Below, piece by piece: positions 1 to 35,155 of a stretch of 35,306 nt of DNA. The stretch spans positions 1 to 35,306 of IMG/VR virus record IMGVR_UViG_3300005253_000660; one strand, written 5' to 3'. Both the position numbers and the translations under genes were made by a program. The DNA comes from a virus. Positions within the stretch are counted from its first letter, which is position 1. Each line of letters starts with the position of its first letter. The notes beneath the pieces were generated by a model. It had not been told where the DNA came from. It was given only the letters and a program-made list of their open reading frames with translations, and made no database searches.

Positions 1-1
1 G

Positions 2-400
2 GACAGATGGGCTGAGGTCTGTTGCCACTGTCATGGGACAAGAAAAGCACCCAACCGAGCCTACGATGGGCTGCGGGAGGTGGTCAGGGAGAGATGCACG
101 TTCCATAGCTTAGTGGAGAATATTGAGTGCATCTGCATTGGTGGACATGTCTCTATGGATGGACAGGTTCACTACCCGTGTCAGGCTTGCGGAGGCACCG
201 GCTACTCCCCCCGCTCCTGGGAAGGGAAACTGGATGGAGAGCTCGAGGGGGCCTTGATTAAGGCCGTCGGTAAAATGGTAGAGTATCCAGCCTACATGCC
301 TGGCATGGTTGAACTGTTCAGCACACTTTTACAACTGATCGCCCAGGAAGGTGACACCAGTGAGGCCGCTGTCCAGGCGGTGCTGGAGGCGCTGAGGTGA
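2..400 (+). CDS. Cys-rich zinc-finger protein, 5' partial
   Basis: The frame is open to the left edge of the window, so the true start lies upstream; the GTG at 80 is only the first internal start codon. The protein has two metal-site-like clusters: a CCHCHG string near the window edge and CQACGGTGY about 45 residues later. Both resemble the CxxCxGxG repeats of DnaJ-type zinc fingers. The rest is an acidic helical tail of about 70 residues. Paired CxxCxGxG motifs usually fold as a zinc-binding module, so a small zinc-binding phage protein is likely; I cannot assign a function. It overlaps the next gene by four bases (GTGA), which indicates an operon. Confidence 0.6.
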   Translation, partial: DRWAEVCCHCHGTRKAPNRAYDGLREVVRERCTFHSLVENIECICIGGHVSMDGQVHYPCQACGGTGYSPRSWEGKLDGELEGALIKAVGKMVEYPAYMPGMVELFSTLLQLIAQEGDTSEAAVQAVLEALR

Positions 401-651
401 GACTGGACTACGACCGGCTGTACATCATCGGCTCTTCCGTGAAGGACATGACGCACCTGGCCTACAAGGGTAAGTGGTCTGACTGTATCTCTCAGGTGTG
501 CCTACCGAACATCCCCGTCATGGCAGTTCATTCCTGTGAAGCTCAGATGGGTGATGAAGGCTACCCGGCGGGTAGGCGAGACGCCGAGTTCTGGGACGAG
601 CACTACAACGAGGTCATCTGCCCCACCTGTCTAAAGAGGGCGGCTGGGTGA
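397..651 (+). CDS. Small hypothetical protein with C-terminal CxxC
   Basis: This 84-residue protein starts at a GTG that overlaps the upstream stop and ends overlapping the methyltransferase start (GTGA), so it is translationally coupled on both sides. The C-terminal half has several cysteines, ending in ICPTCLKRAAG, which may form a small metal site with an earlier cysteine. No family is recognised. Its position between a zinc-finger protein and a DNA methyltransferase suggests a nucleic-acid-related accessory role, but that is inference only. Confidence 0.6.
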   Translation: MRLDYDRLYIIGSSVKDMTHLAYKGKWSDCISQVCLPNIPVMAVHSCEAQMGDEGYPAGRRDAEFWDEHYNEVICPTCLKRAAG

Positions 652-1598
652 ACGAACTGTCCCTATTCTCCGGCTACGGCGGTTTCAGCCTCGGCCTACG
701 GCTTGCCGGGCTGGATGTGCGCACCGTAGGCTACGTGGAGATTGACCCCTACTGCCAAGATGTTCTGAAAGCGAGGATACAGGATGGGCACCTTGACAAC
801 GCCCCAATCTGGCCCGATATATCTGCCTTCAACGGTTATCAGTGCCGTGGACTGGTGGATATCATTACGGCCGGATTTCCCTGTCAGCCCCACAGCACCG
901 CTGGCAAGCGGCAAGGTGAGTCTGACCCCCGCAACCTCTGGCCGGATACCCTCCGAGTCATACGGGAGGTGGGACCCCGATGGGTGCTGCTGGAGAATGT
1001 CCCAGGCATCCTTGCTAACGGGTATGGAGGAACCGTGGTCGGACAGCTTTCTGAGTTCGGGTATGACTGTAGGTGGGGCCTTGTATCGGCTGCCTCCATT
1101 GGTGCCCCACACCTGCGTTGGAGATGGTGGTGTCTTGCCTACGCCCCAGACTACAGACTCGGACAAAGCCGGTGGGCCACCGAACAAGAGGGCGAATACC
1201 AAGAGATGGGGAGGGGTGAACAGTCTGGGGAGAATGGCGGTAACGGGGATGTGGCCTACACCCACAGGTTCACAGGCACGTTCCGAGGGGATGATAAAGC
1301 AGATGCGAACTCTCGTGGACGAAGGAAAGATAACAAGGAAGGAAGCGGAAGAATACATCCAAGGGAGTCTCACGCCACCGAGGATGGCACCTTGGCCCAC
1401 CCCCAGGGCACAGGATGGCCCACACGGCCCAGCGAGGGGGAGTCAGGGGGATTTGGTGAGGTGGCCGACCCCACGGTGCGGAGAGAGAGGACTCTATCTG
1501 GGAGCACCAGGGGACAGGGACAGAGCACGATTCGAGGAGCATGTGGCGAGGGCGGAAGGGACAACGACTGGTGGGCAGCTATTTCCAGGCTGGGTTGA
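648..1598 (+). CDS. C5-cytosine DNA methyltransferase, catalytic part
   Basis: This enzyme type moves a methyl group from AdoMet to C5 of cytosine in DNA. Motif I is LSLFSGYGGFSLG (residues 4-16), the catalytic PCQ is at 78-80 (nucleophile C79), ENV (motif VI) is at 116-118, and the HLRWRWW motif VIII region is at 155-161. After that the frame keeps C5-methyltransferase-like pieces (VAYTHR, LAHPQG, VADPTV, DWWAAI) but stops at 1598 without motifs IX and X. Those lie further on in the +1 frame (next entry). The start is a GTG overlapping the upstream stop. Either a +1 frameshift near 1130 joins the two parts, or this is a truncated enzyme. The catalytic identity is secure; activity is not. Confidence 0.85.
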   Translation: MNELSLFSGYGGFSLGLRLAGLDVRTVGYVEIDPYCQDVLKARIQDGHLDNAPIWPDISAFNGYQCRGLVDIITAGFPCQPHSTAGKRQGESDPRNLWPDTLRVIREVGPRWVLLENVPGILANGYGGTVVGQLSEFGYDCRWGLVSAASIGAPHLRWRWWCLAYAPDYRLGQSRWATEQEGEYQEMGRGEQSGENGGNGDVAYTHRFTGTFRGDDKADANSRGRRKDNKEGSGRIHPRESHATEDGTLAHPQGTGWPTRPSEGESGGFGEVADPTVRRERTLSGSTRGQGQSTIRGACGEGGRDNDWWAAISRLG

Positions 1599-2169
1599 AC
1601 TTCTGATGGGCTTACCACTGGACTGGACATCCCTTGACCCCATGAGCCATATAGAGTATGATATATGGGTAAGGGGGTTTGGTGATGACGAAGGTGAAGG
1701 AGATACCACTTCGGGTATGCAGGACATGCGACAAGCCTCTGGAGAGGAAGCGGTACGACCAACGCTTGGAGGACTTCGGAACATTCAAGAGACGGAAGTA
1801 TTGCAATCTCCACTGTGCGAACACAAGGAAGACCCTGACAAAACACGGCTACAGTTGGAGAGCACGGAAGCACCTCAAGGCAGCTTGCGAAGCCTGCGGA
1901 GAGACTCGGAGGCGGATAGCCCACCACATAGACCAGGACATCACGAACTGCCAACCGGAGAACATTCAGACCCTCTGCAAATGGTGCCACGACTTCTTCC
2001 ACAGTATGGCAGACAGGCGTGGTCTAATGGTAGCTGGGAAGATGGTGTGCCTCGTGTCGCAAAGGGAGTAGCTGACCGAGTAAACAGGCTCAGGGCTATC
2101 GGTAATGGGATTGTTCCCTCATGCGTTGCAGAGTTTCTACGGAGGATAGCCCTGGCTGGGAGCCATTAG
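1132..2169 (+). CDS. C5-methyltransferase target-recognition and motif X part, +1 frame
   Basis: This frame (+1 relative to the catalytic part) is open from before 784 to 2169. From about 1132 it shows the repeated PTP motifs I associate with C-terminal halves of phage cytosine methylases: LPTP at 1135, WPTP at 1252, 1393 and 1462, then GGQLFPGWVELLMGLPLDW at 1570-1626. Motif X follows at 2044-2118 (VPRVAKGVADRVNRLRAIGN). There is no own start near 1132, so it would need a ribosomal +1 shift, an indel in an ancestral gene, or a sequencing error. The stretch between the WT..L motif and motif X carries the nested HNH gene and does not look like methyltransferase sequence. Confidence 0.6.
   Translation, partial: VLPTPQTTDSDKAGGPPNKRANTKRWGGVNSLGRMAVTGMWPTPTGSQARSEGMIKQMRTLVDEGKITRKEAEEYIQGSLTPPRMAPWPTPRAQDGPHGPARGSQGDLVRWPTPRCGERGLYLGAPGDRDRARFEEHVARAEGTTTGGQLFPGWVELLMGLPLDWTSLDPMSHIEYDIWVRGFGDDEGEGDTTSGMQDMRQASGEEAVRPTLGGLRNIQETEVLQSPLCEHKEDPDKTRLQLESTEAPQGSLRSLRRDSEADSPPHRPGHHELPTGEHSDPLQMVPRLLPQYGRQAWSNGSWEDGVPRVAKGVADRVNRLRAIGNGIVPSCVAEFLRRIALAGSH
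1685..2071 (+). CDS. HNH endonuclease nested in methyltransferase gene
   Basis: This is a 128-residue HNH-family nuclease. The N-terminus has a zinc-knuckle-like CRTC (C12, C15) and YCNLHC (C40, C44). The core has CEAC (C68, C71), the HH of the HNH motif at 80-81, N93 in ENIQTLC, and CKWCH (C98, C101, H102). ATG 1685 is preferred because AAGGGGG lies seven bases upstream; TTG 1679 and GTG 1682 are alternatives. The gene sits wholly inside the methyltransferase region in the third frame, between its WT..L motif and motif X, as a free-standing homing endonuclease would. The frame and metal-binding residues are intact, so it is probably functional. Confidence 0.85.
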   Translation: MTKVKEIPLRVCRTCDKPLERKRYDQRLEDFGTFKRRKYCNLHCANTRKTLTKHGYSWRARKHLKAACEACGETRRRIAHHIDQDITNCQPENIQTLCKWCHDFFHSMADRRGLMVAGKMVCLVSQRE

Positions 2170-2185
2170 AGATGATTGGGGGATT

Positions 2186-3043
2186 GTGAAGGCCTACTAC
2201 CAGAACCCGCAGGCTACCCTCATCAGGGTGTTCCCACGCCGCACATCTTATACGCCAACAGATGAGTATGCCTTTGTTGGCGATCCCCCGTTAATTAGAC
2301 CGGATGGATTGACGGTTCACGTGTCCGTCGTGTTTACATGGGATCAAGAGGAGGGTGAGAGGCTGGCGACAGCCTGGGCGCAGTATTATCCGTCTGTTCA
2401 ACTGGGCGGGCCCGCCTTTGGCAATGGCGGCAATAATTTCGTCCCAGGCAGATACGTAGTAAATGGCGTCACCTTCACAAGCCGGGGGTGTAATCGGAAA
2501 TGCCCCTGGTGCTTGGTGCCAGAGCGCGAGGGAAGGCTGAGCCTGCTTTCCATAGCGAGTGGTAATATCATCCAGGACAATAACCTCCTGGCGTGTCCGC
2601 GGGCTCACATCAGCGCTGTGTTTGAAATGCTGAAGCGCCAGCGTAGGTCCGCTATCTTCGCCGGTGGTCTGGATGCTTCTCTCGTTGATGACTGGGTAGC
2701 CCAAGAGATGGCTGGGTTGCGGATCGGGTCCGTGTTCTTAGCCGCCGATACACGAGCAGCGGTAGCCCCACTGAGGGAGGCAACCCGCAGGCTGTCCTTT
2801 CTTAGCAGGCGGAAGCTAAGATGCTATGTGCTCATAGGTTTCGGCGGGGAGAGTATCGCAGCAGCCCGAGAGCGGTTAGAAGCTGTATGGGAAGCGGGTT
2901 GCCTACCCTTTGCCCAACTCTATCAGCCGCCGGATCAGCACATATACTACGATGCCGCCTGGAGAGCCTTGGCAAGGGAATGGTCAAGGCCAGCAGCGAT
3001 GTTTGCAAATCACAGGTCGGAGGTGCTGAAGAGTGAACGCTAA
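2186..3043 (+). CDS. Radical SAM protein
   Basis: This 285-residue protein has the radical SAM cluster motif in GCNRKCPWC (C102, C106, C109), which binds a 4Fe-4S cluster and cleaves AdoMet to a 5'-deoxyadenosyl radical. The preceding 100 residues include an N-terminal segment reminiscent of cobalamin-binding radical SAM proteins but without a visible DxHxxG. Later strands such as LRCYVLIGFGGES fit a TIM-barrel core. The substrate is unknown. It starts at GTG after GGGGGATT and overlaps the next methyltransferase, so two methyltransferases flank it in one operon. I infer a role in nucleic-acid modification, with RNA or protein modification as alternatives. Confidence 0.8.
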   Translation: MKAYYQNPQATLIRVFPRRTSYTPTDEYAFVGDPPLIRPDGLTVHVSVVFTWDQEEGERLATAWAQYYPSVQLGGPAFGNGGNNFVPGRYVVNGVTFTSRGCNRKCPWCLVPEREGRLSLLSIASGNIIQDNNLLACPRAHISAVFEMLKRQRRSAIFAGGLDASLVDDWVAQEMAGLRIGSVFLAADTRAAVAPLREATRRLSFLSRRKLRCYVLIGFGGESIAAARERLEAVWEAGCLPFAQLYQPPDQHIYYDAAWRALAREWSRPAAMFANHRSEVLKSER

Positions 3044-4421
3044 CTGCGGTCATCCCCAAGACTGGTTTCAATGCTACGCAGGCAGCCATGACCTGTGGGT
3101 CCCGGAGGCCTACGCACATCCGGCTAAAATGTCACCCGCCCTCTGCCAACGGATACTCACTCACCTCAAGGAACTGGGGTTGCTCACCGCTGAGGACACC
3201 ATACTGGACTTCATGTGCGGCATTGGCACCACCGTCCTCCTGGGGGCCTTAGCGGGCAATCCTGCGGTAGGGGTAGAGCTGGAGCCGAAGTTCGTAGACC
3301 TCTGTGTGTCCTACTGGTGCCTGGGGATTCCAAAGGTCACGGTCACCAAGGTAATCCTACCGCCCGATGATGGTGGATGGCGCACTGAGAAGGTAACGGG
3401 GAAGAATTACAGCCGTCTCTACTATGTGCGGCCCGTGATGGAGCGTATCCGTTGGAAAGTGAGCAACCAGTGTCGCTGCGGGAAACTTGATTGGCACCCC
3501 GTCCATTGGGTGGTGGGGAACATAGAGTATGTCAGCAAGAAGGTGGGCCGGGAGCTACCGGTGACCATCATCCGGGGGGATGCCCGCCACCTGAGCGACC
3601 TGCTGTGCGGTGGGCTGGACAAGGGCTTAATCGCCATCACCAGCCCGCCGTACGGTGATGCCCTCGGAGACTGGAAGAACAAGGATAGCAACATGCCCGG
3701 GCAGTTCTACTCAGAGGGTTTTCAGAACATCGAGAACCTGCCAGAGACTCTTGACCCGGGTCAACGCACGAAAGCGGACTGGTGGCGTAAGAAAGCATTG
3801 GAGGGCTGCAAAGAGTCCTACCTGGATGCCATGCGCCAGGTCTATGCCGAAGCCTTCAAGGTCTGTGATGTGCTGGCCGTGGTCACGAAGAACCCCACCA
3901 GAAATGGGAAATTACGGGACTTGGCAGGGGACACTCGCCGCCTCTTAGAGGAGGTCGGCTTTACCATCCACTGTGTCCACCGGGCCATTCTGTTTGAAGA
4001 GCTTGAGGGTGGTCATATGTTTGAGGGCAGCCAGAAGAAGGTGAAGGGTCGTCTCAGTTTCTTCAAGCGCCTGTCCTACCAGAAGGGAAGCCCGGTGGCG
4101 CAGTGGGAGGATGTGGTCATAGCCGTGCGGGATGGTGGGGGACTGAAGGGGATTACGAGTCCGCCCTACCAAGGGAACGTCTCGGATAGTGCCAATGACC
4201 CCTACCCTGAGAGGCAGGAAGGCACACCCGCCGGCAGACACTACGGCCAAAGTCCGGGCCAGATAGGCAACCTCAAAGACCGCCCTCATATGTGTGGGAT
4301 AGTGAGTCCGCCTTACGGCACGGGAGAGGGTTTAGGACATGCCGAGAGTCAACCATCGGCTACAGAGAAATATGCTGGCACCCGCTACGGCCAGACCGAT
4401 GGCCAGATAGGGAACCTTTGA
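3033..4421 (+). CDS. DNA amino-methyltransferase (SPPY type) with extra SPPY copies
   Basis: This 462-residue AdoMet-dependent amino-methyltransferase has motif I DFMCGIGTT (59-67) and catalytic motif ITSPPYGDA with SPPY at 204-207. TSPPY is typical of N4-cytosine enzymes and also occurs in N6-adenine ones. An inserted CRCG patch lies near 147-150. The domain seems to finish at WEDVVIAVR (358-366). Beyond it are two further SPPY segments (376-379 and 425-428), followed by near-repeats RHYGQSPGQIGNL and TRYGQTDGQIGNL, the latter at the C-terminus. The GTG start at 3033 has GGAGGTG upstream and overlaps the radical SAM gene. The extra SPPY copies may be a tandem duplication with no catalytic role. 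Confidence 0.8.
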   Translation: MNANCGHPQDWFQCYAGSHDLWVPEAYAHPAKMSPALCQRILTHLKELGLLTAEDTILDFMCGIGTTVLLGALAGNPAVGVELEPKFVDLCVSYWCLGIPKVTVTKVILPPDDGGWRTEKVTGKNYSRLYYVRPVMERIRWKVSNQCRCGKLDWHPVHWVVGNIEYVSKKVGRELPVTIIRGDARHLSDLLCGGLDKGLIAITSPPYGDALGDWKNKDSNMPGQFYSEGFQNIENLPETLDPGQRTKADWWRKKALEGCKESYLDAMRQVYAEAFKVCDVLAVVTKNPTRNGKLRDLAGDTRRLLEEVGFTIHCVHRAILFEELEGGHMFEGSQKKVKGRLSFFKRLSYQKGSPVAQWEDVVIAVRDGGGLKGITSPPYQGNVSDSANDPYPERQEGTPAGRHYGQSPGQIGNLKDRPHMCGIVSPPYGTGEGLGHAESQPSATEKYAGTRYGQTDGQIGNL

Positions 4422-4448
4422 CCCCAGGCGGGATGATAGGAGGAACAG

Positions 4449-4646
4449 ATGGACTTCATGCTGAGTGATACGGAGATAGCTGCTGCTGTGGGGTTCCCCC
4501 ATGCCTATGGGCCGAGCGGTAGAGCCATCCGTGATGCCCAGGCCCGCAAGATACGGGAGTGGCTGGCGGGGACGTGCCCGCACTTACCCTTCACTTGGAG
4601 ACGGCAATGCGACAAATGCTGGGCCGAGTTCTCCAAAGGGGGTTGA
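4449..4646 (+). CDS. Small protein with CxxC
   Basis: A 65-residue protein with a strong AGGAGG site eleven bases before its ATG. The N-terminus is helical, and the C-terminus carries CPHLPFTWRRQCDKCW, whose cysteines and histidine could bind zinc. No family is recognised. It begins the replication-side cluster after the methyltransferases. Confidence 0.6.
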   Translation: MDFMLSDTEIAAAVGFPHAYGPSGRAIRDAQARKIREWLAGTCPHLPFTWRRQCDKCWAEFSKGG

Positions 4647-15001: not shown

Positions 15002-15163
15002 ATGAGAGCACAACCTGACCACAACTTTGAAATGGAGATGGGAGATGAAGGGCAAGTGAAGTGGTGCTACTCTGTCAAGAAATCCATTAGCAACCGCATA
15101 AAATACTGGCTGTTCTGCAAGTTTTTCCCCTTCAAGATAATCCGGTGGGATGCTGACAAGTGA
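15002..15163 (+). CDS. Small hypothetical protein before the giant gene
   Basis: A 53-residue ORF. GGAGGG lies seven bases before ATG 15002; an in-frame ATG at 14987 overlaps the previous stop and could add five residues. The sequence has an acidic N-terminus and a basic aromatic C-terminus (YWLFCKFFPFKIIRW). The stop overlaps the GTG start of the giant protein. Function unknown. Confidence 0.6.
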   Translation: MRAQPDHNFEMEMGDEGQVKWCYSVKKSISNRIKYWLFCKFFPFKIIRWDADK

Positions 15164-18100
15164 TTGACCAGCGCCGCCGCCGCATCCTCAGTAGGCAACA
15201 AGCCGAAGAGGAGTTCGGGGATGCTCTCCAGCAAGCCCTGACAGAAGCCGGGGTTACCTTCGGCGAAAGACAGGTGCTTGAACTTGAGGAGGACGACCAG
15301 GGGGAACTGACCGCCCGGTTGCGCTCCGTTGGGGAACCCCTACCCGAGGTGACGGAGATTCCTCCCCCGCCGGAAGCCTTCGAGCCTTTTGAGGCCCCGG
15401 AGATTGGCCGACCTCCCCTTGCGCCAAGGGAACCTGTTCCACTAACTCCCGGAGCCGCCCAGGTTCAGGCGGAGGTAGAGGCCGAGGTAATCGGGCTACA
15501 GGAGCAGCAGCAGCGGTTTCTGGAGCAGGCCCGTGATGTAACCGAGAGGCTCTTTCCACAACTAATAAGGAAGAGAGAGTTCCGGGGTCCAAGAATACGG
15601 GGCCTTGAAGTGGTTGAGCCGGGGAGAGAAGTCGTCGGCCCCGAGGCGGTGGAGGAGCTTGAGAACCTTATAGAGGAAGACCCCGAGGCTTTCCTGGAGG
15701 ACATCCGCACCAGGGGGCCGAGCCCAGATACCGAGTTTGTGCTGAGGGAGTTCTTTCGGGCCAGCCCCCAGGCGATTGAGGAGTTCTTCGCCCCGCCCTC
15801 GATACCGGAGATACCCGAGGAGGGCCTGCCCATAACCCTGACCGGGGCAGAAGGGGAAGCGATAGAGGCCACAGTCCAGCAGAACTTCAGCGTGTGGGTT
15901 GACGACGCCCATGTTGGCTCAATCAACCCGGAAACCGGGGTACTCAGCCCCCTTACCCAAATGGAGCAGGCCAAGGTAGCCCTGGCCGACGCTTGGGAGG
16001 GCTACTATGAGGCCCCACGGAAAGACTACGATCGCCAAGACACCCTGAAGAAGATAGGCCATGTTCTTCTCCAGACCGCGCTCGTTGGCGGCACTTACAT
16101 TGAGAAATATGTGGGTCGCCCCTTCAAGGTGGCAACCCTTGAGGCCAACACATTCTTCTACGCCAAGCAGGACTTCTTCCCCGGTGCAGACCTCGCCCGG
16201 GACACGCAGAGGACACTCAATGAGGCCAGGGCTAAGTTCGGGTGGGCCATGGTCGTCTCGGAGGAGGTTGACCAGGCCTGGGAGACCTATCTTGAACGTT
16301 CCAGTGGCCTGACAAGGTTCTCCCTCCAAGCCAGCGAGTGGTTCAACCCGGTCTATTTCGTGCCTATAGGGGGCACATTCGGCCTGGCGGCCAAGTTTAC
16401 CTCTAAGATCCCCGTTATCGGTAGGATAACACGCCTTACCGCAGCAGGTGTCCTGGCGACTGAATCAGCGGTGGCTCTGCCGATTACCCTGCCGCTTCGT
16501 GGTGGGGTTCGTGCCATGGAGACGGTGGGGAGGAGATTGGGAGAGAAGGCTGCCAACGACTTCATAAAGAAGGCTGCTCACCTCACCACGCTGGAGGACA
16601 TAGCCCTCCAGTCCACCGATGATGTCATAAAAGACCTGCTGCAACCGAACTGGCAGCGGTCCCTGATCCAGAAGATGACAACGGTGCCTGTTGCGGGGAC
16701 TGTTTTCAAGAAGGGCTTTGAGAAGGGTCTGGGATGGCGCATCCTGGTGCGGCGTGAGGGACAGGCAATTGAGGACATCATGGGAAAGGGGGCGGTGGTC
16801 CACTCCTACTTCGAGAGGATGGGGGTGGATGCCGCCAATGTGAAGCTGCTGAGACTCCGGGGCTTGGTGAGCGACCCGGTGGGGCTATACGGGTTCAACA
16901 GGGAGGCCATCTCCGAGCGGATGTTTGACCGGCTGCTGCCGGAGTTCCGGGGCACGGCGGAGGAGAAATTCGCCGGGACCCTGGAGCATGTCTTCACCAA
17001 GCCCGAGATGTACAACTTCAATGGCTTGGGTAAGTGGTTGCCTGAACAAAAAGTGTGGTCAGGCCAGGCCTATGTCTCCGAAGTCCATGAGGTCAACACC
17101 GAGGTCTTGAAGTTCCTCCGGGCCGAGGGCGTGGCCCCGGAGCATCTGACCGAGGACTGGTGGCTGCACCGGGTCGTACTGGGCAAGCTGGACGAAAACG
17201 CAGAACTGTTGGCGGTGCGCGGTCGTCCGGGGCAAAGGGGCGCCGCTATCGGTGCCCGGAGGTCCTATGAGTTGAGGCGCAAGCACGTCACCATGGCCGA
17301 GGGGATAACCGAGCGGGTGCGCTACAGCGCCAACCCAGAGGACGCCGTGAGAACCTACATCCAGGAGGCCTTCAAGAAGGTGGCCGATGCCCGGTCTCTG
17401 AGTTATATAGACAAAAATCTCACTGGATTCGGGATTACCCCGGCAGAGAGACTGGCGGGAAAGTTCCCCCAGGTTGTGGCACGGGCTACGCTCACCAAGC
17501 AGGAGGCGGAGGATGTCAACAAACTGGTAGCCATCATCAACCGGGCTATCCGGGGAGAGGCGATACCAGAGCAGACCTTGAGGGCGATGGAGCGCAGGTT
17601 CCCGGAGATGGGGGCGAGGCTAAGGCAGACGGTGACAGGAAAGGAATCGCCCGCTGCCTTTGGCTCCGTAGAGGACGACATATTCGGCTATCCCATGCCG
17701 GAGCGTTTTGAAGGGATAACGGCGGAAGCTATCCGGCCCACCGTGGAGGGTATCAAGGGACTTGAGGCAGTCCCGGTAGCCCCCAGAATAATAGTAGAGA
17801 AGGTGCAGCCCAACCTTGAGGGCATCAACCGCATCGTGGAAGGGTTGGAGGGCGTTTCAGGCGTCACTGCCGAGGTCCGTAGTGTGCTGCAAGATGGTGT
17901 AAAGGCAATAACTGAGGCAGTCAAACCTGGCATCACCGTGGCGGAGAGAGAGGCATTGGGAGGAAGGCTGACAGATACCTGGGGCAAGCTATTGGGTCTC
18001 ACTGAGAAGGCGAGGGCTGCTGGCAATGCCGAATTGGTTCGTGTGCTGGAGGATGCGGCGAGTTTTGTAGGCAAAACAGGAACGGCTGTCGAGCCGCTGT

Positions 18101-21100
18101 TGGCGGAGTTGAAGTCCGTTACCTTCCCAGTTAAGGGGAAGCAGGCCCAGTTGACAGACCTCCGGGCAGAAGTCAATGAGCTAAAGATAGGGCGTAGACA
18201 GGCAGCAGCCCTCGCAAGAGAGCAGCGTAAGGTTCGCTTGGAGCAGATGCGACAGCCCGAAATTGGGGAAGGCTACATCATGCAGCCCTTCGCCGGGGGC
18301 AAGATTTACAACCAGGAGTTCATTGACAATTTCAACCGCTTCTTCGGCTACGACCCCGGCTCCAAGATTCTGAGGACAACAGCGGATGTAGCTGGCATCC
18401 TACGGATTACCAAGGCGGCAGGGGACTTTTCCTTTATGGCTATTCAGGGACTACCATCCTTTGGCTTGTCCCATGCCTACATGATTCAGAACCCGAAGAT
18501 AGGCGTCAAGATGATGGGGTCGTGGTACAATGCGCTCTTCCAGTCTGTAGCTTCATTCTTCAGCCCAGATGTGTTCGCACGGTGGATGGCCAAGAACGAG
18601 GAGGCTGTTTTGGGGAGGGTGGCTAACGGCGGGAGCGTAAGGGCAGTTGACTTATTCACCACGCTGGAGGCACGGACAGGACTCGCAAACATCGCTCAGA
18701 AGGGCATGAGGGCTATTCCCCTCAAGCCTTACCACCGATTTGAGCTTGCCTTCCTCGCCAGCGGTGAGTATATCCGTGACACCTTCTGGAAAATACTGGG
18801 TCCGAAGTATGCCGCCCGTGGCGAATCAAGAGAACTGGCTCGCTACCTTGACCGGATTACGGGCATCACCGACTCTCAGGCCCTTGGTATTCCGACCACA
18901 GTGCGGCAGTTTGAGCAGAGCTTCATGTGGTTTGCCCCCAACTACACCCGTGCATCCCTGACGGTGGTGGCCGATGTGTTCCGTGGTGGCATGACGGGAG
19001 CGGAATCACGGAAGGCCCTTGGTGGGTTGATAGCGGCTGGTGCCATCTACTTCATGGGCACCCAACTGGCTATCTCGGCAGCCAAGGGGGAGCCGGAGGA
19101 GGAGGCCTGGGAGCGCATCAGGACGGGCTTCGGTATCCAGATAGACCCCATCACCAACGAGACCACCTGGAGTCCCGATGCCCGCTTTATGAGCATCCAG
19201 ATTGGAGACCGGTTCTTCGGCATCGGCGGCTTCTGGTATGGGCTGGTGCGCCTTGCGGGCAATATGAAGAATACTTGGGATGAAGAGGGAGACCGGGAGC
19301 GTATTGACTTCATCAAGATAATCAAGAACGGGAGCTTGAACAGGCGGGACAACCCCTTCATATACTGGTGGTTCAGCCGGGCATCCCCACTGGTAGGGGC
19401 TGGTTTTGAGTTTGCCACCGGGCGAGAATACATGGGCCACGGGATAAGTCCTGAAGGCCTACCGATATTTGAAGACCCCGCATCTTACGCCCTGTGGACT
19501 GTGAAACGGTTTGAGCCCATCTGGGCGGAGCAGGGCCTCAACTGGATGGTGCCCGGCTTGGCCAGGGACAACGAGATACCGGAAACCACCCTGCAAAAGG
19601 TACTGGTGCCGGTGACCGAACTGTTCGGCGTCAGGCAATGGCCGGAGGGGAGCTGGTCTGATTTCTACGAGAGGGCCAGTGAACTCATTGCCGCCATGGA
19701 CCCCACGACGCTGGACGAAAAACAGAGAGCGGCCTGGGAAGCTGGGAAACTGGGGTGGGGGGAGCTGACGCCGCTGCAACAGACGGGGCTACGCAGCCAG
19801 TACGCAGACCTCCAGGCCGACTATGAGAAAGCCCAGGAGGACAGCGCCGCCCGAGCCTCCGGGCCGTACCAGGACTATTACGACCGGGTGCGCAACGAGA
19901 AGGAGAACTACTATGGCCTCGGCTTCACGGGCAACCTGGAGAGACCCGGCGTGGTGGACGAGCTACTGGCTGGCGACCTCGACACACGGGAGATGCGGGA
20001 GAAGTGGGGCGATAAGGGCATGGTCTACGGCGGCATCCTCGACTCCATACGGCGGGAGCCGCGGTATGCCCCGGCGATGGAGCACCAGGCCAAGATAGAG
20101 GACGAGCGGGGCGAGATATACGGTTTCCAGGACGAGGTGGCGCTGGCCAAATACATCACCATAATCTACTCCGAGCACCTGAAGCCCAACGGTGATCCCG
20201 ACTGGGACCGGATAGACCGGGACGTGGACGAACTGATAGAGGAAATCGGCGAGGACACCTACCAGCGCATCCTCAAGATGTATTCCCAGAAGAAACTACT
20301 CGACGGCCTCCACCCAATTCTTATCAGGCTGAGCGACGACAAGCAGGTCCTCAGCCGGGACTACTGGCGGCTTCCCTACAAGGAGTTCCAGGACATGACT
20401 GAGGAGGACATCCTTAAAGGGAATGTCCTTGCTGAGAATGTGTCCATGGTGCGGGGCTTCCTGGCGGCTGAGACCGATGAGGAGCGGGAGGCGCTGATAG
20501 AGGCGCAGCCCCTGCTGGCAAGGGACTGGCGGGGTGACTGGCGTCGGGCTAACCCGGAGGACGATGCCCGTCTCACGCTCTGGGGCTACGGTGGCAAGAT
20601 TCAGAGCATGGAGGCCTACAACCTTGTGACGCAGTGGTCTCAGGAGCTGGGGATACCCCTGGAGCAGATAGGCATGGGCCTGCCCCCGCGGAGCCTGATA
20701 CCCCACCAGTTTGAGCAGAACAAGATTGTCGCTGAGACAAGCCCCAGTAGCTGGGAGACCAAGCTCTACAACCTGGAGAACCCGGAGTGGCTGGGGTGGC
20801 AGATAGAGCAGGGCATCAAGACGGACGACCTATCGGATGAGAGCATAGATGCGCTGAGGCTCAAAGTTCAGCACCGCCCCGATATAGAGACCTACGAGTC
20901 CTACGGAAACCGGAAGTCGGACGCCTACATTGAGAGCGACGAGGAGCGGCGCACGACACGGGAGGCTTATCTGGAGGCCCACCCTGAGTTCCGGGACAAC
21001 CGGCGCCGGGTAGATATGTATGAGCTGGGAGCCACTGACCTAACCCTGATTGAGGTGGATGTCCAGTATGGGCAGGTCACTGACGAGCACGGGGCTGGTA

Positions 21101-22143
21101 GTGCGGAGGCCATGCTGTTCCGGGTGGACAATCCTCCTCTGAATACCTTTGGGCAGGACGAGGACACCTTCGGCTGGGCACCCATAGACGAGAGCCGTAT
21201 CCCCATCTGGCGCATTGATGTGAAATACCCGGTTGAGGACGATACCTATGATGTGGAGATACCGGAGAGGTTCGCCAGCATAGCCGATAAGTCGGAACGG
21301 GATGCGGCCGTCCGGGATGCCAGGGCAACATTCCTGGAGGAGGACGAGCCCTACCGGAAAGACCGGAGGCGGCGTCAAGGGTATGAGATTGATGTCCCGA
21401 CAGGTCTGATAGAGAAGCATGTGGCTATCAACGAACTGACGGCCAAGGGCTTCCGGCAAGAAAGATACCTCCGTGATAACCAGGACTATTACGAGCAGGT
21501 GTGGCTGAACAAAGACGTGCTGGACAATGCGGCCGTTGACTTCTCTAAAATACCCGACGAGAGATACGATGACCTGCGGGACAAGTGGGCGGAGCAGTTC
21601 GATCAGTATGAGACGGAGTTGCCTGAGCAGGTCAAGCACATTGCCGACGATACAGAGCGGGCTGAGGCGCTACAGGCTCTGAGGGATAAACTGTTCGCCG
21701 CCAGTCCGGGCTTCTTCGATGATCGCCTGCGGGCGGATGCTTTCGCCCGGTTAGTGCCCGGCGGCCTCACCTCAGCCTATGTTGATTACTACGGCGTGCT
21801 GTACCGGGGCAAGCCGGAAGGCTGGGAGAAATGGTGGGCGGATGACCGGGTGCTGATGGAGAACCCAGGTTTCTTCAATTTCGCCAAGGCCACATGGGAC
21901 TGGTCGGACAGGGACTTCTCCCTGGTGGGCACCGTGGACTTTGAGCGGAAATACAACGAGGAGTATATCAATCTCAGGCTCCCGGATGGCAAGGCGGATG
22001 CAGATGCACGGAAACTCTACCGATTCAAAGACCGGGAGTTTGACATTGAGGGTGCCCGGATTGGCGTCTGGAAGACCCTGATAGAGGTGGAACGGGGTAA
22101 GCGTGTCCGGGGCATACGTGGCTTTGTTGAGAGGTTCAAGTGA
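15160..22143 (+). CDS. Giant virion-associated or polyvalent protein (2327 aa)
   Basis: A single 2327-residue protein, by far the largest here, starting at a GTG coupled to the preceding stop. Residues 1-230 are acidic, Glu/Pro-rich and partly coiled. A middle part (about 1050-1420) has hydrophobic stretches such as ALGGLIAAGAIYFMGTQ (about 1286-1302) and resembles domains of large polyvalent proteins. The C-terminal 400 residues hold three or four degenerate repeats of about 115-120 residues starting near 1928, 2046, 2166 and 2277, with a recurring Arg-rich motif (FRDNRRRVDMYE, YRKDRRRRQGYE, FFDDRLRADAFA). Between portal and scaffold genes, an injected internal virion protein is most likely. 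No enzyme motif was recognised. Confidence 0.7.
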   Translation: MIDQRRRRILSRQQAEEEFGDALQQALTEAGVTFGERQVLELEEDDQGELTARLRSVGEPLPEVTEIPPPPEAFEPFEAPEIGRPPLAPREPVPLTPGAAQVQAEVEAEVIGLQEQQQRFLEQARDVTERLFPQLIRKREFRGPRIRGLEVVEPGREVVGPEAVEELENLIEEDPEAFLEDIRTRGPSPDTEFVLREFFRASPQAIEEFFAPPSIPEIPEEGLPITLTGAEGEAIEATVQQNFSVWVDDAHVGSINPETGVLSPLTQMEQAKVALADAWEGYYEAPRKDYDRQDTLKKIGHVLLQTALVGGTYIEKYVGRPFKVATLEANTFFYAKQDFFPGADLARDTQRTLNEARAKFGWAMVVSEEVDQAWETYLERSSGLTRFSLQASEWFNPVYFVPIGGTFGLAAKFTSKIPVIGRITRLTAAGVLATESAVALPITLPLRGGVRAMETVGRRLGEKAANDFIKKAAHLTTLEDIALQSTDDVIKDLLQPNWQRSLIQKMTTVPVAGTVFKKGFEKGLGWRILVRREGQAIEDIMGKGAVVHSYFERMGVDAANVKLLRLRGLVSDPVGLYGFNREAISERMFDRLLPEFRGTAEEKFAGTLEHVFTKPEMYNFNGLGKWLPEQKVWSGQAYVSEVHEVNTEVLKFLRAEGVAPEHLTEDWWLHRVVLGKLDENAELLAVRGRPGQRGAAIGARRSYELRRKHVTMAEGITERVRYSANPEDAVRTYIQEAFKKVADARSLSYIDKNLTGFGITPAERLAGKFPQVVARATLTKQEAEDVNKLVAIINRAIRGEAIPEQTLRAMERRFPEMGARLRQTVTGKESPAAFGSVEDDIFGYPMPERFEGITAEAIRPTVEGIKGLEAVPVAPRIIVEKVQPNLEGINRIVEGLEGVSGVTAEVRSVLQDGVKAITEAVKPGITVAEREALGGRLTDTWGKLLGLTEKARAAGNAELVRVLEDAASFVGKTGTAVEPLLAELKSVTFPVKGKQAQLTDLRAEVNELKIGRRQAAALAREQRKVRLEQMRQPEIGEGYIMQPFAGGKIYNQEFIDNFNRFFGYDPGSKILRTTADVAGILRITKAAGDFSFMAIQGLPSFGLSHAYMIQNPKIGVKMMGSWYNALFQSVASFFSPDVFARWMAKNEEAVLGRVANGGSVRAVDLFTTLEARTGLANIAQKGMRAIPLKPYHRFELAFLASGEYIRDTFWKILGPKYAARGESRELARYLDRITGITDSQALGIPTTVRQFEQSFMWFAPNYTRASLTVVADVFRGGMTGAESRKALGGLIAAGAIYFMGTQLAISAAKGEPEEEAWERIRTGFGIQIDPITNETTWSPDARFMSIQIGDRFFGIGGFWYGLVRLAGNMKNTWDEEGDRERIDFIKIIKNGSLNRRDNPFIYWWFSRASPLVGAGFEFATGREYMGHGISPEGLPIFEDPASYALWTVKRFEPIWAEQGLNWMVPGLARDNEIPETTLQKVLVPVTELFGVRQWPEGSWSDFYERASELIAAMDPTTLDEKQRAAWEAGKLGWGELTPLQQTGLRSQYADLQADYEKAQEDSAARASGPYQDYYDRVRNEKENYYGLGFTGNLERPGVVDELLAGDLDTREMREKWGDKGMVYGGILDSIRREPRYAPAMEHQAKIEDERGEIYGFQDEVALAKYITIIYSEHLKPNGDPDWDRIDRDVDELIEEIGEDTYQRILKMYSQKKLLDGLHPILIRLSDDKQVLSRDYWRLPYKEFQDMTEEDILKGNVLAENVSMVRGFLAAETDEEREALIEAQPLLARDWRGDWRRANPEDDARLTLWGYGGKIQSMEAYNLVTQWSQELGIPLEQIGMGLPPRSLIPHQFEQNKIVAETSPSSWETKLYNLENPEWLGWQIEQGIKTDDLSDESIDALRLKVQHRPDIETYESYGNRKSDAYIESDEERRTTREAYLEAHPEFRDNRRRVDMYELGATDLTLIEVDVQYGQVTDEHGAGSAEAMLFRVDNPPLNTFGQDEDTFGWAPIDESRIPIWRIDVKYPVEDDTYDVEIPERFASIADKSERDAAVRDARATFLEEDEPYRKDRRRRQGYEIDVPTGLIEKHVAINELTAKGFRQERYLRDNQDYYEQVWLNKDVLDNAAVDFSKIPDERYDDLRDKWAEQFDQYETELPEQVKHIADDTERAEALQALRDKLFAASPGFFDDRLRADAFARLVPGGLTSAYVDYYGVLYRGKPEGWEKWWADDRVLMENPGFFNFAKATWDWSDRDFSLVGTVDFERKYNEEYINLRLPDGKADADARKLYRFKDREFDIEGARIGVWKTLIEVERGKRVRGIRGFVERFK

Positions 22144-34583: not shown

Positions 34584-34724
34584 ATGAAACACACCACTAC
34601 TCAGAGACCAATGAGGGCCATTTGCACCTGTTTGAAGTGTAATCATGTCTGGGTAAGCAGGGCAGATGGACTGCCACCCCGGTGCCCAAGTTGCCACACG
34701 AGACGCTGGATGGTGAAGGCTTAA
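34584..34724 (+). CDS. Tiny zinc-ribbon protein
   Basis: A 46-residue ORF with a four-cysteine ribbon: CTCLKCNHVWVSR then PPRCPSCHTRRW. It matches the 4676 protein and the C-terminus of the following HNH protein. There is no ribosome site, consistent with leaderless translation from the promoter above. The stop overlaps the next ATG (TAATG). Confidence 0.75.
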   Translation: MKHTTTQRPMRAICTCLKCNHVWVSRADGLPPRCPSCHTRRWMVKA

Positions 34725-35155
34725 TGGTTAGCAACAAAGACCCATATTTTGCTCGCTATCCTGAGAGGCGCAAAACCCAGGGGCAGGTGGCAAATGCTAT
34801 CCAGTCTGGCAAGCTTATCAAGCTTGGCTATTGCGAAGTGTGTGGCGTAAAAGGTGAGCGCTTAGAAGGTCACCACGCTGACTATAGCAAGCCCTTAGAG
34901 GTCACATGGCTTTGTAACCTTTGCCATAAGGCAATAAACCATTCTACTCCAAGGGCGGAACATAACCCTAACCCCATTAAGGCAATGGGCAATAAGCAAT
35001 GTAGAGGCATGGCTAAAGCGAGAATAGGTCAACTTCACACCTGCAAGAGGTGCGGCCATGAATGGCATGGCCGCCAAGAGTCAACGCCAATCAGGTGCCC
35101 CAACAAGGCGTGTCTGAGCCCCTACTGGCAGAGGGATAGGAAGGGGGAGCAGTGA
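34724..35155 (+). CDS. HNH endonuclease fused to a zinc ribbon
   Basis: A 143-residue protein. YCEVCGVKGERLEGHHADY (C37, C40, HH at 50-51) and LCNLCHK (C64, C67, H68) form a phage HNH/endonuclease VII-like core. A second zinc ribbon at the end (CKRCGHEWHGR ... CPNKAC; C107, C110, C125, C130) resembles the stand-alone ribbons in this window. ATG 34724 overlaps the previous stop, so it is preferred over GTG 34682. Nuclease activity on DNA is likely; role may be packaging, recombination or homing. Confidence 0.8.
   Translation: MVSNKDPYFARYPERRKTQGQVANAIQSGKLIKLGYCEVCGVKGERLEGHHADYSKPLEVTWLCNLCHKAINHSTPRAEHNPNPIKAMGNKQCRGMAKARIGQLHTCKRCGHEWHGRQESTPIRCPNKACLSPYWQRDRKGEQ

Follow-up and report, generated by a model that had tools for sequence, protein, structure and literature searches.

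How can a single stretch of phage DNA carry the pieces of a C5-cytosine DNA methyltransferase (C5-MTase) in two reading frames? The question is raised by the window, the whole 35,306-nt stretch of viral DNA analysed here (IMG/VR record IMGVR_UViG_3300005253_000660), in which an original prediction had noticed two methyltransferase-like frames in the same bases at 1132–1598. Three explanations had been offered: a +1 frameshift fusion, an overlapping (overprinted) gene, or two families that are frame-shifted descendants of one gene. M.EcoHK31I (YGGCCR) has a small chain encoded inside the large one in another frame, and in M.AquI the overlap of the alpha and beta genes is shorter. Both are known natural two-polypeptide C5-MTases (PMC3404938). 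From the sequences of the window and its relatives, we consider it likely that this locus encodes one C5-MTase as two polypeptides from overlapping frames, assembling as alpha plus beta.

Two reading frames in one methyltransferase locus

The alpha gene occupies frame A at 648..1598 on the + strand and encodes 316 aa with a C5-cytosine methyltransferase catalytic core (PF00145, 1.4e-38; phrog_363, 1.9e-58). As originally read, this frame carries PCQ (879–887), ENV (993–1001) and the motif VIII sequence GAPHLRWR (1101–1124), and then VAYTHR, LAHPQG, VADPTV and DWWAAI. Motifs I, IV (PCQ), VI (ENV) and VIII follow in the order that marks a C5-MTase alpha chain. Motifs I–VIII extend up to ~1124, followed by a tail without motifs IX and X, and the match to M.HhaI is confined to residues 15–177, i.e. 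as far as motif VIII. A single-chain C5-MTase has IX and X on the chain of I–VIII; here frame A stops at 1598, and it is frame B that carries both IX and X. The frame A tail in 1132–1578 (VAY/LAH/VAD) is mainly a shadow of frame B.

The beta gene lies in frame B, +1 to alpha on the same strand, and runs from ATG 784 to 2169 (461 aa; phrog_1008, 1.3e-24). Its layout comprises a core-overlapping N-terminus, the WPTP region, motif IX, a linker overlapping an HNH gene, and motif X; beta thus overlaps alpha across ~270 codons and is then itself overlapped by the HNH gene. The phrog_1008 match spans window positions ~868–1636, taking in bases that code for catalytic motifs of A. Beyond the WPTP repeat region (1132..1578, +), a putative target-recognition domain, come motif IX, LFPGWVELLMGLPLDW (1579..1626, +), which aligns to the conserved LNPxWVEWLMGFPxGW, and a motif X module, GVPRVAKGVADRVNRLRAIGNGIVPSC... 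(2044..2166, +). The latter corresponds to the end of phrog_363 that holds motif X (C-terminal positions 256–313), and its frame relation is shared by the class II relatives, which are defined below. LPTP/WPTP repeats, GWVELLMGLPLDW (motif IX, 1579–1626) and RLRAIGNGIVP (motif X, 2086–2118) all lie in the one open +1 frame 784–2169, and the WPTP and VAY/LAH/VAD codons are indeed identical bases (TGGCCnACnCC). The original observation is real, but its extent of 1132–1598 was too short: the double coding begins at 784 in the catalytic core, and B reaches 2169 through the HNH gene.

Double coding, chance and selection

Frame B could be a mere shadow, an unexpressed by-product of the A protein and its codon usage, in which case phrog_1008 would consist of mis-called ORFs. 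Gene callers do disagree over which frame to call, and synonymous shuffles of A still gave a mean of 27 bits with the B N-terminal profile; their maximum was 51.2 bits and the window itself scored 68.2. The B C-terminal profile was weak in the window (5.7 vs a shuffle maximum of 8.3). B stayed open over 784–1595 in 2 of 5000 synonymous shuffles of A, and A stayed open over 1138–1595 in 6 of 5000 synonymous shuffles of B. When module 1276–1389 of the window's WPTP region was compared with its counterparts in L002 and L004, identity was 24–25/38 in B and 7–9/38 in A, and the differences were concentrated at the third codon position of B (B1/B2/B3, 11–13/10–11/23–25). These identities speak against a shadow, as do the codon rates given below, which put the fastest change in the WPTP and IX regions at B3, and the location of motif IX, required in C5-MTases, only in B. 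Accordingly, we regard a mere shadow as very improbable.

The codon-level comparison proposed in the original prediction was made with pairwise substitution rates per A codon position (A1/A2/A3) and found selection on A in the core (.19/.14/.48), on B in the WPTP region (.34/.12/.21) and motif IX (.23/.08/.12), and again on A in the X tail (.17/.10/.50); the rates for the ENV–VIII segment were.26/.15/.40. Both frames are conserved as proteins, and the selected frame switches from A to B and back to A along related genes. The low rate at A2 (= B1) throughout indicates that A remains constrained across the WPTP region, though B dominates there. A was open through this region in 84 of 84 loci vs 7 expected, an openness that A requires if it is to reach X. 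Within the window's core (784–1137), A3 was undamped (.63 vs.62) and fastest on both sides of 784; selection on the N-terminal part of B is thus not visible there for the window's family.

Recurrence of the frame relation

Hundreds of loci from phages, bacteria and archaea show the identical A/B frame relation. All search patterns and profiles were derived from one lineage, so that the counts refer to this lineage and not to all phage C5-MTases; canonical single-frame C5-MTases also exist (e.g. L256). The A motif VAHGVPxRVDRL, written as a DNA pattern that permits every synonymous codon, was searched for in IMG/VR. Nearly all of the 121 matches also coded WVEWLMG[FY]Px[GE]WT at +1, despite the free wobble positions of A, and the reverse search with a B pattern returned mainly genes with a complete A. 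Among 157 dereplicated phage genes chosen by motif patterns, B had no stop between ENV and motif IX in 151 (~12 expected), whereas frame C (+2) was open in none. A third sample, of the PCQD subtype, was chosen by the core motif GGFPCQD alone and excluded loci already obtained by the first two patterns; both B profiles lay at +1 in 86 of 94 usable loci among the matches listed. In bacterial and archaeal genomes chosen by motif IX, B was found at +1 of a core in 76/80 loci. Both frames are also present in a prophage gene of E. coli PT62, of which RefSeq annotates A only.

A single-base indel near 1130 introduced during sequencing or assembly, raised in the original prediction as a possible artefact, would split one ordinary gene and could produce such a picture in one contig. 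This explanation is excluded for practical purposes by the frame relation in the 157 dereplicated viral genes, in the PCQD sample and in the 76/80 genome loci, and by the fact that both frames are open far past any single junction.

Database searches with both frame translations, a check that had been suggested, placed A in phrog_363 and B in phrog_1008 for the window, L010, L008, L012 and L349. PHROG lists these as separate families, both 'DNA methyltransferase', though they are two frames of one DNA. The suspicion that two known C-termini are frames of one DNA stretch was thereby supported, as VGRVAHGVPxRVDRL and WVEWLMGFPxGWTDL share bases and the two families coincide at shared loci.

Several loci deviate from the common pattern. 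Candidates for stand-alone B genes (L002–L004) did not establish a case, L003 carrying a complete A, and L070, whose core and IX share a frame, has the look of a local indel and was left out. The prophage copy in L448 (E. coli PCP07014, 1222–1983) is annotated as a pseudogene and has one stop position common to both frames. C5-MTases of Gordonia and Mycobacterium phages (L007, L009 and L011) have B-type N-terminal and LPTP sequences at +1, with motif IX located either in frame A or in another gene, and represent a separate layout.

Motifs IX and X

On sequence grounds, the LNPxWVEWLMGFPxGWT segment of B is identified as C5-MTase motif IX. In L305, where IX is fused in frame to the core, IX–X align with M.HhaI 270–318, weakly, but collinearly and in order. 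This locus (105–1154, – strand) has IX and X back in the core frame with the WPTP modules still at +1, an apparent local re-fusion. Most relatives have X in frame A, overlapping IX on shared DNA; frame B carries it in the window, in L179 and L198, and in window-like loci.

B could instead be a separate protein with another role, such as an inhibitor or regulator, leaving A alone as the methyltransferase. Its long N-terminal part lacks a C5-MTase counterpart, and B alone had no Pfam match and no match in a PDB profile search; 46 B proteins searched against Pfam gave a single weak TPR match and nothing else. However, A lacks IX in the window and its relatives while B carries it, in the window together with X; the WPTP-region frame is less conserved in A than in B; and L305 fuses the same IX in frame with a core, collinear with M.HhaI. 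We therefore judge a separate role improbable and retain B as a chain of the methyltransferase. AlphaFold modelled full-length B with low confidence (mean pLDDT 53); for a core+B fusion of the relative L204, values were >90 for most of the core and 30–48 in the B part.

Predicted initiation of beta

Programmed +1 frameshifting near 1130 would join the core of A to the WPTP–IX–X part of B in one polypeptide. One such shift would link the core motifs to IX–X, and A plus B together give the canonical motif order. However, B is open upstream of the supposed junction: from motif IV on (IV–VIII), 5 B stops were seen vs 168.5 expected, and in the control region upstream of motif IV there were 162 vs 194.6 expected. 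B also has its own Shine–Dalgarno sequence and start. Strong Shine–Dalgarno sequences with a start inside the core occurred in frames A/B/C in 1/49/10 loci of 157, compared with 3.7/11.5/11.3 in shuffles. Moreover, since X is in frame A in most relatives, two opposite shifts would be required. A frameshift fusion near 1130 is thus unsupported and unlikely. As B is open from motif IV on and has an internal start with its own Shine–Dalgarno sequence, independent internal initiation, as predicted from sequence, fits better than frameshifting. With B open in 151/157 genes, the codon rates, and an internal Shine–Dalgarno sequence and start, the overlapping gene is the one of the three original alternatives that is strongly supported.

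The candidate Shine–Dalgarno sequence for beta in the window, GAGGA (773..777, +), lies 6 nt before ATG 784 and is weak, with a 4-nt match (AGGA); relatives have strong ones at the equivalent place. In class II relatives the ATG of B is usually 4 nt past the GTG of A (GTGAATG), with a ribosome-binding site shared with A. The window has GTGAACG in place of this sequence, so that B opens later and ATG 784 is the best start. An Rfam search of window positions 1–4500 gave no match.

An HNH gene between motifs IX and X

A putative HNH endonuclease ORF lies in the third frame (B+1) between IX and X (1679..2071, +; phrog_8048, 8.5e-4; HNH_5, 0.005, below cutoff), and frame B runs open through it. A search with this HNH protein yielded 32 loci, all in C5-MTase-type genes. 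The X-carrying frame was open through the HNH ORF in 32/32 and a core was detected upstream in 27/32; across 28 dereplicated loci there were 0 stops in the host frame vs 126.5 expected. Within the insert the HNH frame is the more strongly selected one (rates.25/.22/.45). Class II comprises the window and 17 further loci, of which one is a near-duplicate; here A stops short of the HNH gene and B carries IX and X. In class I (10 loci) the core and X of A form one ORF. Remnants of a dual IX/X segment flank the HNH gene in L025 and L234. In L025 the two codings are naturally separated, motif IX of B being kept in one copy and the X module of A in the other; an earlier reading of L025 as a locus with a broken B was rejected in favour of an HNH insertion with one copy per frame.

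There are earlier descriptions of phage methylases with out-of-frame HNH insertions (PMC11855218). As in the ShiLan type described there, the window has an out-of-frame HNH gene within a phage methylase gene whose host frame is open through it. The ShiLan-type inserts lie in mycobacteriophages, whereas ours occupy other loci, within a two-frame C5-MTase and between its motifs IX and X, and the ShiLan description is not known to include A/B double coding. A second HNH-like ORF (CEVCG...HHADYSKP) is present at 34682–35155 of the window.

A proposed two-chain phage methyltransferase

We propose that alpha (648–1598) would supply the cofactor-binding and catalytic domain with motifs I–VIII, and that beta, initiated independently at an internal ribosome-binding site (start ~784), would contribute motif IX together with the WPTP target-recognition region, and in the window motif X as well. 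The two would assemble into an active enzyme, as in M.EcoHK31I and M.AquI, and an HNH homing-endonuclease gene, in the third frame, would have entered between IX and X, with frame B left open. We infer that both proteins are made and bind each other, and that the complex methylates DNA.

Among known enzymes, M.EcoHK31I is one C5-MTase of two polypeptides with IX on the small chain; the window also has IX on a second predicted polypeptide, but this B, with 461 aa, exceeds the 316 aa of A. M.EcoHK31I has X on the large chain, with the recognition domain predicted there too (PMC3404938). Frame B carries X in the window, although most relatives have it in A, and the WPTP region evolves as frame B; with these two differences, we do not class the window as a member. 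The overlap of its two genes does resemble that of M.EcoHK31I, and the window pair nevertheless very probably works like this enzyme. M.AquI has I–VIII on alpha and the variable region with IX–X on beta, its small chain (PMC3404938), a division found in the window and also in L179 and L198, but here beta overlaps alpha by ~270 codons and is in turn overlapped by the HNH gene. Searches of open-licence PMC papers turned up no account of this phage family as an enzyme coded in two frames.

For bacteria and phages, there are few documented cases of long same-strand overlaps in which both frames are conserved as proteins. The overlap described here is common, being carried by the phage of the window, by several reference phages and by a prophage of E. 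coli, and the arrangement is widespread in phages and generally annotated as a single gene. Because one-frame annotation is usual, methyltransferase predictions miss the chain with motif IX and probably the recognition domain. More tentatively, overlapping two-chain coding may be how a major lineage of phage C5-methyltransferases is normally built, and not the oddity of one restriction system. The X-adjacent VGRVAHGVPxRVDRL of alpha might then have arisen by overprinting motif IX, and nearly all of window-class beta would be coded by DNA that also serves two other genes, alpha and a homing endonuclease. The locus offers a directly testable system for the origin, initiation and upkeep of overlapping genes, and for swapping second-frame recognition domains.

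A second DNA methyltransferase (3033–4421; N6_N4_Mtase, 1.5e-07), whose C-terminus repeats 'SPPYG...' segments, lies just downstream. The ORF between the two methyltransferases (2186–3043) resembles radical SAM proteins only weakly (E 0.03, below cutoff), and further along the window one ORF of 2327 aa occupies 15160–22143.
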